A stretch of DNA of 64,000 bases from Xanthobacteraceae bacterium (GTDB taxonomy: Bacteria; Pseudomonadota; Alphaproteobacteria; Rhizobiales; Xanthobacteraceae), in the NCBI GenBank assembly GCA_019752575.1, contig JAIELW010000008.1:1-64000 (forward strand), read 5' to 3'. Below, in pieces: positions 3,417 through 63,154 of the stretch. The position numbers were made by a program, and so were the translations under genes. Each line of letters starts with the position of its first letter. Position 1 is the stretch's first letter. The notes under the pieces are model-generated. The model was not told the origin of the DNA, did no database searches, and was given only the letters and a program-made list of their open reading frames with translations.

Positions 3417-3463
3417 CCCTCCCCAGCATGGGGAGGATGGCTGCCGAAGGCAGCCGGGTGGGG
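3417..3463. repeat. Two-hairpin repeat R1 (left border of DUF559 unit 1)
   Basis: CCCTCCCC/GGGGAGG hairpin, then a second hairpin GGCTGCC/GGCAGCC, then GGGTGGGG. It ends 3 bases before the GTG start of the DUF559 gene and is the inverted counterpart of R2 at 3804. Confidence 0.85.
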
Positions 3464-3465
3464 CG

Positions 3466-3864
3466 GTGGCGAACGCGAATGCCAGGGCATTGCGGAAAAG
3501 AATGTCGCAGCAGGAAATCAAACTGTGGCTGCGGCTACGGGCGTTGCGCGAGAGAGACTTTCACTTTCGGCGTCAGGCGCCCCGCGATGGGTTCATCCTG
3601 GACTTCGTTTGTTTACGCGAGAAGCTAATTGTCGAGTTAGACGGCGATACGCACGGTCATTCGCGGCAATTGACGACAGATACCAAGCGTGACGAACATT
3701 TCTTAGAGAAAGGATTTCGAGTCCTTCGGTTCTGGAACACAGACGTGGACCAAAATCTGGACGGCGTCGTCGAAACTGTTTATCGCATTCTTACATCAGC
3801 TAACCCCACCCCGGCCCTTCGGGCCGACCCTCCCCTGACAGGGGAGGGAGGAATCGTGGAATGA
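3466..3864 (+). CDS. DUF559 domain protein (VSR-like endonuclease fold)
   Basis: A 132-residue DUF559 (PF04480) protein. Characteristic parts are [19 protein letters not shown] at the start, then [26 protein letters not shown] (acidic PD-(D/E)xK-like core), and [12 protein letters not shown] near the C-terminus. The family is related to very-short-patch-repair-type nucleases; no reaction has been shown for most members. The coding region is embedded in repeats: GTG start 3 bases after R1, and its last 20 codons are repeat R2. The stop overlaps the HigA-like start (ATGA). A paralogue with the same repeat borders is at 21915-22286, and a 3' fragment lies at 4151. Confidence 0.85.
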
Positions 3865-3865
3865 A
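3748..3865 (+). repeat. Direct repeat copy A (118 bp)
   Basis: Begins at GACCAAAATCTGG inside the DUF559 gene and runs through repeat R2 and GGAGGAATCGTGGA to ATGAA, the first bases of the HigA-like gene. A near-identical copy B lies at 4151-4267 and ends with the first bases of gatB. The copies flank the HigA-like gene. Confidence 0.9.
3804..3848. repeat. Two-hairpin repeat R2 (right border of DUF559 unit 1)
   Basis: CCCCACCC, then hairpin CGGCCC/GGGCCG, then CCCTCCCC-TGACA-GGGGAGGG. It is translated as the C-terminal tail of the DUF559 protein ([17 protein letters not shown]) and carries the GGAGG Shine-Dalgarno used by the next gene. Confidence 0.9.
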
Positions 3866-4139
3866 GCATCCGCCCCATCCCGGTTTATCGGTACGCCACG
3901 ACTGCATGGAGCCGCTTGGCCTGAGCGTGACCGAAACGGCGCGGCGGCTCGGCGTCAGCCGCAAACAGCTATCCGATGTGCTCAACGGCCATGCGGGGAT
4001 TTCGCCCGAGATGGCAATTCGCCTCGACAAGGCATTCGGCGGCGGTGCCGATACTTGGCTGCGGATGCAGGCAGCTTACGATCTCGCGCGAGCCATGAAG
4101 AAAGCGAGCAAGATCAAAGTACGGCGCATCGCGGCGTGA
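3861..4139 (+). CDS. HigA-family antitoxin, orphan (XRE helix-turn-helix)
   Basis: A 92-residue HigA-type addiction-module antitoxin: HPG motif at the N-terminus, [21 protein letters not shown] forming the helix-turn-helix, [20 protein letters not shown], and the family signature [13 protein letters not shown]. Such proteins normally repress their operon and neutralise a HigB RNase encoded just upstream. Here no HigB is present; the upstream gene is DUF559, and the ATG overlaps its stop (ATGA) behind a repeat-borne GGAGG. It sits between 118-bp direct repeats, so it was probably brought in or duplicated with the repeat unit. It could regulate a distant toxin or be a solitary regulator. Confidence 0.85.
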
Positions 4140-4150
4140 GCTTTGGTGCA

Positions 4151-4243
4151 GACCAAAATCTGGACGGCGTGGTCGAAACTGTTTATCGAACCCTGACAAT
4201 CGATAACCCCACCCCGGCCCTTCGGGCCGACCCTCCCCTATAA
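4151..4243 (+). pseudogene. 3' fragment of a DUF559 gene
   Basis: Encodes only the last part of DUF559 ([15 protein letters not shown], then the repeat-derived [12 protein letters not shown]), matching codons of the full gene at 3748-3843. No start or nuclease core is present. It is part of direct repeat B and marks a duplication or recombination between repeat units. Confidence 0.85.
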
Positions 4244-4253
4244 GGGGGGGAGG
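4207..4253. repeat. Two-hairpin repeat R3 (gatB leader)
   Basis: CCCCACCC, hairpin CGGCCC/GGGCCG, CCCTCCCC-TATAA-GGGGGGGAGG. The terminal GGAGG is 9 bases from the gatB ATG and must be its ribosome binding site; the hairpin could occlude it. Confidence 0.85.
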
Positions 4254-21906: not shown

Positions 21907-21954
21907 CCCTCCCCTTAAAGGGGAGGGTCGCCGCGCTTGCGCGGCGGGGTGGGG
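21907..21954. repeat. Two-hairpin repeat R4 (border of DUF559 unit 2)
   Basis: CCCTCCCC-TTAAA-GGGGAGGG, hairpin CGCCGCGC/GCGCGGCG, GGGTGGGG. It encodes the C-terminal tail and stop codon of the DUF559 gene read on the minus strand. Confidence 0.9.
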
Positions 21955-22286
21955 TGGCAAGCCGACAAGATCGTCTCCACAACACCGTCAATGTTCTCGT
22001 CAACATCGGAATTCCAAAACCGAAGAACGCGGAAGCCTTTTTCGACAAGCGTTTTGTCCCTTAGACGATCTGCTGAATGGCCAGTGTCTGTTGCATGCTG
22101 GCCCCCATCTACCTCGATGACGATAAGCTTACGCAGGCAAGCGAAATCAACAATGAAGTTTCCGATCGGAACTTGACGACGAAAATGCAGGTTCATCTGC
22201 GAACGAAGCTTGCGCAAACGAACCCATAATTTGACCTCCTGTGAAGTCATCCGTTTTCGCAACTCTCTCGCTACAGAGTTAGCCAT
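21915..22286 (-). CDS. DUF559 domain protein, second copy
   Basis: A 123-residue DUF559 protein related to the one at 3466: MANSVARELRKRMTSQEVKL, NLHFRRQVPIGNFIVDFACL, VIEVDGGQH and [20 protein letters not shown]. The acidic residues of a PD-(D/E)xK-like site (D of IVDFAC, E and D of IEVDG) are kept. Start ATG 22286 aligns with the other copy; an in-frame GTG at 22301 lies in the repeat. The last codons (HPTPPRKRGDPPL) and the TAA are inside repeat R4, and R5 abuts the 5' end, so gene and repeats form one unit. Nuclease activity is inferred only. Confidence 0.87.
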   Translation of the reverse strand: MANSVARELRKRMTSQEVKLWVRLRKLRSQMNLHFRRQVPIGNFIVDFACLRKLIVIEVDGGQHATDTGHSADRLRDKTLVEKGFRVLRFWNSDVDENIDGVVETILSACHPTPPRKRGDPPL

Positions 22287-22295
22287 TTTCATCAA

Positions 22296-22347
22296 CCCCA
22301 CCCGCTTCGCGCTATCGCGCGAAGCTTCCCTCCCCTAAAGGGGAGGG
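22296..22347. repeat. Two-hairpin repeat R5 (border of DUF559 unit 2)
   Basis: CCCCACCC, hairpin GCTTCGCG/CGCGAAGC, CCCTCCCC-TAAA-GGGGAGGG. Inverted relative to R4. Confidence 0.9.
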
Positions 22348-23361: not shown

Positions 23362-23412
23362 CCCCACCCGGCTTCGCACTCGTGCGAAGCCACCCTCCCC
23401 TAAAGGGGAGGG
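23362..23412. repeat. Two-hairpin repeat R6 (solitary)
   Basis: CCCCACCC, hairpin GGCTTCGCAC/GTGCGAAGCC, CCCTCCCC-TAAA-GGGGAGGG. No partner or DUF559 gene next to it. Confidence 0.9.
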
Positions 23413-63019: not shown

Positions 63020-63068
63020 CCCTCCCCCTTGCGGGGAGGGTCGCCGAGCGAAGCAAGGCGGGGTGGGG
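63020..63068. repeat. Two-hairpin repeat R7 (left arm of an empty pair)
   Basis: CCCTCCCC-CTTGC-GGGGAGGG, short second stem CGCC/GGCG, GGGTGGGG. Faces R8 in the same orientation as the pairs that enclose DUF559 genes. Confidence 0.9.
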
Positions 63069-63100
63069 GCGAATCCCTACGCTCAATTTTAGCGCTGCCA

Positions 63101-63154
63101 CCCCACCCGGCTCGCGCCTGGCGGCGCTCGCCACCCTCCCCGTCAAGGGGAGGG
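63101..63154. repeat. Two-hairpin repeat R8 (right arm of an empty pair)
   Basis: CCCCACCC, imperfect second hairpin (GGCTCGCGCC/GGCGCTCGCC), CCCTCCCC-GTCAA-GGGGAGGG. Only 32 bases separate it from R7 and no gene lies between. Confidence 0.9.

Follow-up and report, generated by a model that had tools for sequence, protein, structure and literature searches.

The window, by which we mean the whole 64-kb stretch of DNA that was analysed, holds two DUF559 genes, each bounded by two inverted, inward-facing copies of a repeat that we call TM, after the class to which we assign it below. In unit 1, repeat R1 (3417-3463, plus strand; identified by sequence and fold) marks the 5′ end, faces the gene and is laid out as a hairpin (CCCTCCCC/GGGGAGG), a second hairpin and a mirror-image third strand (GGGTGGGG). 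DUF559 nuclease gene 1 (3466-3864, plus strand; 132 amino acids, identified with Pfam) starts with GTG at 3466, two bases after R1, and repeat R2 (3804-3848, minus strand), inverted and likewise facing the gene, marks the 3′ end. The two flanking repeats and the position of the start codon are as the preliminary description had reported them. It had also stated that the last 20 codons are translated from R2. The tail of the reading frame does run over R2, but these 20 codons comprise R2 plus 13 bases past it, and only 14 of them lie wholly inside the repeat, with two more at its edges. A second unit, described earlier as having the opposite orientation, is indeed found with its gene on the minus strand: gene 2 (21915-22301 with the ORF caller's longest start, a little inside of which are ATG starts) is bounded by a TM repeat at the 3′ end of the unit (21907-21954, plus strand) and another at the 5′ end (22296-22347, minus strand), both identified by sequence and fold. 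A pattern scan revealed a lone, partnerless TM repeat (23362-23412, minus strand), and near the end of the window lies a pair of inverted repeats with no gene between them (63020-63069, plus strand, and 63101-63154, minus strand). R1 and R2 each fold as two hairpins on one strand (z -3.05 and -4.09), and all six tested copies, of the eight in the window, do so as single-stranded DNA (z -1.6 to -6.7, weakest for 63020-63069).

The products of genes 1 and 2 match DUF559 (PF04480) with E values of 4.9e-33 and 1.5e-34 (113.7 and 118.6 bits versus a cut-off of 20.6); this was the sole Pfam match of either protein, apart from MTES_1575 below its cut-off. An HTH_3 protein gene (3861-4139, plus strand; 92 amino acids, identified as an ORF and with Pfam) follows gene 1, its start codon overlapping the DUF559 stop (ATGA). 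At 4151-4250 (plus strand) lies a 100-bp stretch that copies the DUF559 3′ end and R2 at 87%, its own copy of R2, the second, being at 4207-4250. The HTH_3 gene, in the region 3861-4250 between unit 1 and gatB, therefore has a copy of the unit's 3′ end on either side, like cargo, and we saw no partner toxin next to it. Two other identities for the features of the window were considered and rejected. At gathering thresholds, the one Rfam match in the window was a tRNA, so the repeats were not assigned to an RNA family, and PADLOC gave only weak partial matches to anti-phage defence genes (DpdF and Hhe, E 1e-5 to 3e-4).

A profile search of the 3.0-Mb assembly gave eight DUF559 matches, of which seven are stand-alone genes; the eighth (L008) lies at the C terminus of a SpoU methylase fusion and has no repeats. 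By eye, all seven stand-alone genes lie between inverted, inward-facing repeats. An automated detector found the motif on both sides of six of the seven; at L004 it scored one side, the other copy being degenerate. Two of these loci, L001 and L002, carry another repeat subfamily, CCTCTCCCC..GGGGAGAGG..GGGTGAGGGG. The assembly contains 71 exact CCCTCCCC-type hairpins (perfect CCCTCCCCN2-12GGGGAGGG sites) and 49 of the CCTCTCCCC..GGGGAGAGG type, compared to 0 and 0 for the reversed control patterns, which bears out the earlier view that the layout is not due to chance. The other six DUF559 proteins of the genome are 42-56% identical to the window protein, a divergence indicating that the gene-bearing unit is not bursting. 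Near-identical multiple copies of the gene-bearing unit are absent from this genome, unlike the situation for a classical insertion sequence, with which the unit nonetheless shares terminal inverted repeats.

Three parts make up the window-type repeat: a C-rich/G-rich hairpin (CCCTCCCC-loop-GGGGAGGG), a variable second hairpin and, closest to the gene, GGGTGGGG. Among 260 flanks, 176 were informative about the orientation of the third block: it mirrors the purine arm of its own hairpin in 108 and repeats it directly in 9, with 59 ties. On sequence grounds, the repeats correspond to the intrastrand-triplex motif (TM/PIT), a hairpin with a mirror-image third strand, as set out in the text of Holder 2015 (PMC4666352), and hence are not new. 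According to the text of that paper, more than 260 prokaryotes have G/C-rich triplex-forming repeats, which are associated with genome instability and whose origin is left open; the E. coli TM forms a stable triplex in vitro, while DMS footprinting gave no support for it in vivo; and E. coli TM pairs always combine one type A with one type B. The likeness extends to the mirror third strand, intergenic position, inverted pairs of two unlike types and variability among strains (PMC4666352). CTC-type repeats have the published layout: flanks such as those downstream of L001 and at L146 and L148 follow the TMECO consensus CCCTCNCCCN3-6GGGNGAGGGN3GGGNGAGGG in their arrangement. In the window type, the N3 of TMECO is replaced by a second hairpin. 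A further difference lies in the context. The text of PMC4666352 states that TM gene contexts never showed transposase or integrase remnants and reports no mobility function there, whereas here a DUF559 gene lies between the repeats; the words "DUF559", "nuclease" and "ycjD" are absent from its main text.

The E. coli DUF559 gene, ycjD (1351407-1351760), lies about 170 bp from TM no. 9 of 23 (1351204-1351239). By eye, ycjD has a second, degenerate TM copy running over its 3′ end and shows none at the 5′ end, and the E. coli unit therefore looks decayed or domesticated. The fabI-ycjD-sapF stretch is at least 80% present in 3333 of 5426 E. coli genomes, and ycjD accordingly looks fixed rather than mobile.

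Other repeat families were encountered alongside TM. At L024, L029 and L033, a different palindromic family (AAGTCGGCTATAGCCGACTT and CATCTCGGATTTATCCGAGATG types) is inserted in the loop of the repeat's second hairpin, and at L285 (G005) the same family is inserted in a terminator-like hairpin; this element seems to target hairpin loops. The sequence L219:11355-11469, at first considered a TM pair, was dropped as belonging to another family. It is a third repeat, GTCGTCCCCGCGAAGGCGGGGACC..GGATCCCCCGC, of about 115 bases, that is present in G002 and absent from G001, G004 and G007, which have a gap of 9-11 bases instead.

We then examined DUF559 genes across bacteria. A scan of species genomes identified 545 DUF559 relatives, of which the best 80, ranked by likeness to the proteins of this genome, were kept; they span Alpha-, Beta- and Gammaproteobacteria, Gastranaerophilales, Desulfobacterales, Syntrophales, Nitrospirae, Bacteroidia and others. 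The detector required a stem of at least 7 and a mirror-image third block within 200 bases of the gene, and 78 of these best 80 loci were scored, two with short flanks being left out. The motif was found on at least one side of 69 of the 78 and on both sides of 46. Neither side scored at nine, some of which (for example L059 and L062) show repeats by eye. By contrast, none of 62 control windows at a distance of 1.1-1.3 kb had the motif (0 of 62), and neither did any of the 78 loci after shuffling of the flanks (0 of 78). Among viral loci (the best 7 of 24), all seven had the motif on at least one side and six on both. In this genome and 40 relatives, 58 stand-alone loci, a set that includes broken pieces and fragments, had the motif on both sides in 36 cases, on at least one side in 54 and on neither in 4. 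Fifty of them entered the tree described below; of the remaining eight (L170 and L293-L299), seven had the motif on at least one side and L170 had none. Six loci encoding long DUF559 fusions (L008, L169 and L171-L174) lacked the motif on either side and provide a natural negative control. DUF559 genes without repeats, which the preliminary description had named as evidence against its reading, thus exist among the fusions, the 78 loci and the 58 loci of this genome and its relatives; most stand-alone genes are flanked. Long proteins with a C-terminal DUF559 domain, of which the SpoU fusion is shown for L008, are present as one copy in many relatives and have no repeats; a possible explanation is an RNA-related use of the same fold.

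The two repeats of a unit are related to each other and oppositely oriented. In 39 of 76 loci, the best inverted match of the upstream flank among the 76 downstream flanks was its own partner (76 of the 80 loci; L057, L068, L089 and L117 were left out because of a short flank or N). The mean score was 53.5 for the inverted and 48.4 for the direct orientation, the latter being high because each hairpin is its own inverted repeat, and so the score by itself does not prove inversion. The proof comes from the third strand. Among the 78 loci, GGGTG(A)GGG was found upstream in the forward orientation at 37 and as its complement at 5, and downstream as the complement at 33 and forward at 6, with both sides correctly oriented at 27. 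A control requiring outward orientation on both sides scored 29 of 78 compared to 46 of 78 inward, and 10 compared to 34 among 50 loci of this genome and its relatives; self-inversion of the hairpins makes this control weak. Flanks of related loci are not independent, and these tests therefore overstate significance, not direction.

Repeats were also observed at more distant loci. In Neisseria gonorrhoeae (L267), the two TM-like sequences bordering the DUF559 gene are direct and not inverted, and each forms part of a longer repeat. On Picosynechococcus plasmids (L244 and L245), CCCC..GGGG..GGGG repeats lie at the borders of cyanobacterial DUF559 genes, and two related plasmids have the DUF559 gene in the same neighbourhood with differing numbers of repeats.

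To compare nuclease lineage with repeat subfamily, 50 stand-alone loci were labelled by eye with one of six subfamily labels before tree building, and the tree was built from the DUF559 domain alone, excluding the repeat-encoded tail. The subfamily label changes 7 times on this tree, the minimum being 5; the mean for shuffled labels was 26.6 and none of 200 shuffles was as low. The host genome label on the same tree changes 41 times. Repeat type therefore tracks nuclease lineage and not host; a pattern of this kind marks out a dedicated pairing of enzyme and repeat. The type with CCCTCCCC plus a second hairpin comprises 16 genes from 10 genomes, all on one side of a branch with support 96/90, while the CTC type alone needs five changes and two CTTCTC genes are ungrouped. 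As judged from these sequences, the matching of nuclease and subfamily is strong but not perfect. The pairing of DUF559 with the repeats is well supported.

Many repeats form inverted pairs without a gene. We fetched 14 such pairs from this genome, and in 12 one end has a CTTGC loop and the other a TTGAC, TTGAT, TCGAC or TTCGAC loop. Eleven of the 14 are fully inward in orientation and three are readable only in part. The same two unlike ends are found in DUF559 units L006, L164, L252, L254 and L260, which have TCGAC, TGGAC, TTGAC or TTGAT loops at the 5′ end and CATGC, CTTGC or CTTGT loops at the 3′ end; units L161 and L262 have like ends. A search with L006 matched its 5′ and 3′ ends separately at gene-less pairs, for example at the pair in the window, where its 5′ end matched 63099-63154 (loop TTGAC) and its 3′ end 63020-63069 (loop CTTGC). 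The sequences flanking the 14 pairs are unrelated. By eye, neither GTAG nor CGTC lies directly beside the outer hairpins in any of the 14.

Comparison with congeneric genomes indicated that units are insertions that vary in presence. Unit 1 lies between lrgB and gatB and is absent from all five congeners having both neighbours, in which the gap between these genes is 28-60 bases compared to about 850 in this genome (G005 and G007 were left out at this site). Unit 2 is absent from G002, G004, G006 and G007 and present in G003 (G001 and G005 left out). The L001 unit is absent from the five congeners read (G004 and G005 left out), the L006 unit from all seven, and the one stand-alone unit of G001 from the three genomes showing both flanks. 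All five units compared are thus missing from some congeners, and unit borders, whose constancy the preliminary description would have counted against mobility, do vary between species. A single repeat, L219:1709, has a diverged copy in G003 and is absent from G007, and by eye the corresponding spot in G002 holds an inverted pair of the other subfamily instead. On Azospirillum megaplasmids, the four strains read all have the unit at a single common site, and these plasmids therefore gave no empty site.

The insertion sites themselves were inspected for recurring features. By eye, a terminator-like hairpin precedes each of unit 2, L001 and L006, with 12-16 bases between its T-run and the unit. 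Inspection of the 14 gene-less pairs by eye, and of the sites compared with congeners, where divergence limits the reading, showed no target-site duplication; in this respect the units differ from classical insertion sequences. The sequences outside the two ends are inversely alike (mean 5.09 versus 3.91 mismatched pairs, 0 of 5000 permutations, n = 93), which fits either insertion into palindromes or terminal repeats longer than drawn; at L104, a top case, the likeness is simply due to a further repeat outside. Some neighbours recur. In distant bacteria, DUF559 units lie directly upstream of the same housekeeping genes: pheT at seven loci (L003, L054, L088, L153, L163, L253 and L259), carB at three (L001, L045 and L057) and gatB at three (L007, L044 and L052). 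The same pheT junction in seven loci looks like long vertical persistence. Simple random insertion does not explain the recurrence at pheT, gatB and carB, which keeps a homing-like route open.

We next asked how repeats and DUF559 genes are distributed among genomes. Among 41 genomes (this one and 40 relatives), repeat number correlated with stand-alone DUF559 genes (Spearman 0.71); the copy-number correlation was not significant within the genus (0.51, p 0.20) or the family (0.37, p 0.14). A survey of the class covered 190 Alphaproteobacteria from 168 genera, scoring as with DUF559 any genome with a match of at least 85 bits, matches in long frames included, and as repeat-rich any with an excess of at least 10 repeats over the reversed control. 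Repeat-rich genomes made up 35 of the 47 with DUF559 compared to 6 of the 143 without (odds ratio 67, p 7e-22), and the correlation was 0.70 for the real pattern and 0.23 for the reversed control. G052 was scored with nine DUF559 matches where its list shows eight, which affects neither presence/absence nor rank. The exceptions are six genomes with many repeats and no 85-bit DUF559, and eight with DUF559 and an excess of fewer than five repeats. Among the former orphans, G082 and G197 share a genus, and G218 a family, with a DUF559-bearing genome, suggesting recent loss of the gene. These statistics ignore kinship, and part of the genome-level correlation may reflect shared ancestry.

The preliminary description had related DUF559 to VSR-type nucleases, and structure prediction agrees. 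The predicted structure of the window protein (mean pLDDT 81.8) matched 3HRL, the uncharacterised DUF559 protein NGO0050, at rank 1 (E 5e-7), 3R3P, the catalytic domain of the homing endonuclease I-Bth0305I, at ranks 2-3, and 1VSR, E. coli Vsr, at rank 4 (E 0.0026). DUF559 also matched I-Bth0305I in sequence (E 2e-4). D46, E57, D59 and H63, the catalytic positions, are invariant in 50 sequences and all present in gene 1. The match to a Vsr fold and the conserved acidic and histidine residues thus argue that these proteins are Vsr-like nucleases. The repeat-encoded tail of the gene 1 product has a pLDDT of 46-59 and is probably disordered. The window proteins have the same domain and fold as the DUF559/COG2852/YcjD family, which includes VsrA and NGO0050. 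In the accessible text of the literature on this family, YcjD is placed in a Vsr-related PD-(D/E)XK family (PMC1189080), the Caulobacter protein VsrA is required for the DNA-damage response in cells without cytosine methylase (PMC12907096), a Deinococcus DUF559 gene is among those with changed expression without cytosine methylase (PMC6712171), and a segment with a transposase and DUF559 is a recombination hotspot (PMC12308824); that text describes no flanking repeats of the TM kind, which are present here. The fold and catalytic core are also like those of Vsr-like EDxHD homing endonucleases (I-Bth0305I, 3R3P). Known members reside in introns or inteins, according to the entry title ("mobile intron protein") and the text of PMC9403480, whereas the gene described here stands free, bounded by repeats of its own, and the units have gene-less derivatives.

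On balance, we favor the idea that stand-alone DUF559 proteins are the dedicated enzymes of TM/PIT repeats, in a relationship like that of RAYTs to REPINs, with the gene-less pairs as non-autonomous derivatives; we consider this probable, with appreciable room for doubt. In this model, the autonomous unit would be TM(5′)-DUF559-TM(3′) with its repeats facing inward, and gene-less TM/TM pairs would stand to it as REPINs do to RAYTs. When the strand carrying the unit becomes single, on the lagging-strand template or in DNA under repair, each end would fold into a hairpin with a mirror third strand and, optionally, a second hairpin. The Vsr-fold PD-(D/E)XK nuclease would recognise the ends of its own subfamily and nick or cut beside them, and host replication and repair would then remove or re-insert the folded segment. 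Re-insertion would be preferably intergenic, near terminators or other palindromes, and without target-site duplication. The formation of the triplex, its binding and cleavage, and the spread of repeats by cleavage are steps that we infer. Mobilisation by DUF559 would best explain the gene-less pairs with shared ends, the insertion polymorphism and the copy number. Against mobility, a lone PD-(D/E)XK nuclease offers no obvious strand-joining chemistry. The more specific reading, in which DUF559/YcjD is a transposase-like partner of TM that recognises two unlike folded triplex ends and spreads TM pairs, we advance tentatively, at a little under even confidence. The same tentative standing applies to its extension to E. 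coli, neisseriae and cyanobacteria, in which DUF559 would hold the place that HUH enzymes hold for REPs.

The preliminary description had compared the unit to RAYT and REP logic, and the repeats on both sides, subfamily matching, gene-less pairs, presence and absence among congeners and co-occurrence across the class all support this comparison, movement being the part that would follow from it. As set out in the text of PMC3116915, REPIN/RAYT systems likewise have a diverged enzyme gene that is present as a single copy between inverted palindromic repeats, inverted pairs without the gene that are dispersed between genes, and matched families of enzyme and repeat; the gene-bearing unit of a RAYT is likewise not bursting. 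However, RAYT is an HUH/Y1 enzyme whereas the enzyme here is a PD-(D/E)XK nuclease with a Vsr fold, and REPs have a GTAG foot whereas the repeats here lack it and have a hairpin and mirror third strand. We tested for an HUH domain and found none, so the unit is not a member of the REP/RAYT class, though it appears to work alike. The earlier remark that no mobility system of this kind had been described holds for the link between DUF559 and the repeats, which we found unreported, no paper joining the two having been found in the accessible text of the open-licence literature searched; it does not hold for the repeat class, known as TM/PIT (PMC4666352).

Among the alternatives, the one that survives best is free-standing homing, which we regard as unlikely: the Vsr-like DUF559 protein would cut a conserved site and be copied together with its repeats by donor repair, the repeats helping repair or expression and not moving by themselves. 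The rank of the I-Bth0305I catalytic domain as second-best structural match and the sequence match to this enzyme favor such a route, as do the assignment of an intein-linked DUF559 gene to the EDxHD homing family in the text of PMC9403480 and the units upstream of the same genes in distant bacteria. However, the carB and gatB units carry different repeat subfamilies by eye, as expected of independent insertion and not of one homing lineage. Homing also leaves unexplained why gene-less inverted pairs with matching unlike ends lie at unrelated intergenic sites and why repeat number follows the presence of DUF559.

A less likely possibility is that DUF559 is a non-mobile nuclease of repair or control that acts on TM structures or regulates itself, its substrate being carried alongside. 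The Vsr-like fold, the role of VsrA in the DNA-damage response and the changed expression of the Deinococcus gene are in keeping with this idea. In addition, the start codon of L004-L007 comes directly after the third strand GGGTGGGG, which could have a role in translation. Self-regulation, however, needs one copy of the repeat and neither two unlike inward ends nor gene-less pairs, and a non-mobile nuclease does not account for units and pairs that are insertions relative to congeners.

We consider it very improbable that an unrelated transposase, a RAYT or IS200-like Y1 enzyme, moves the repeats in trans with DUF559 as a passenger. The arrangement is REP-like, and Y1 proteins are encoded in 10 of the 41 genomes, some of which have TM. 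However, a search for Y1_Tnp (PF01797) gave no match in this genome or its seven congeners, though this genome has more than 100 repeats, making it unlikely that a RAYT or IS200 Y1 enzyme spread the repeats here recently; for Y1, the family covered, action in trans was rejected on this ground. Moreover, a passenger would not match the repeat subfamily across genomes. Finally, the notion that the repeats are bystanders, intergenic hairpins being abundant in GC-rich genomes and DUF559 often adjacent to them, is scarcely credible given the lack of the motif in the distant windows and at the SpoU-DUF559 fusions and given the subfamily matching.

These findings provide TM repeats with a candidate enzyme that shares their loci and whose lineages correspond to their subfamilies, and give a large uncharacterised nuclease family that includes E. 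coli ycjD a testable job. We know of no described case of a repeat-spreading system built on a PD-(D/E)XK nuclease alone; if DUF559 does move TM repeats, it would be such a system.
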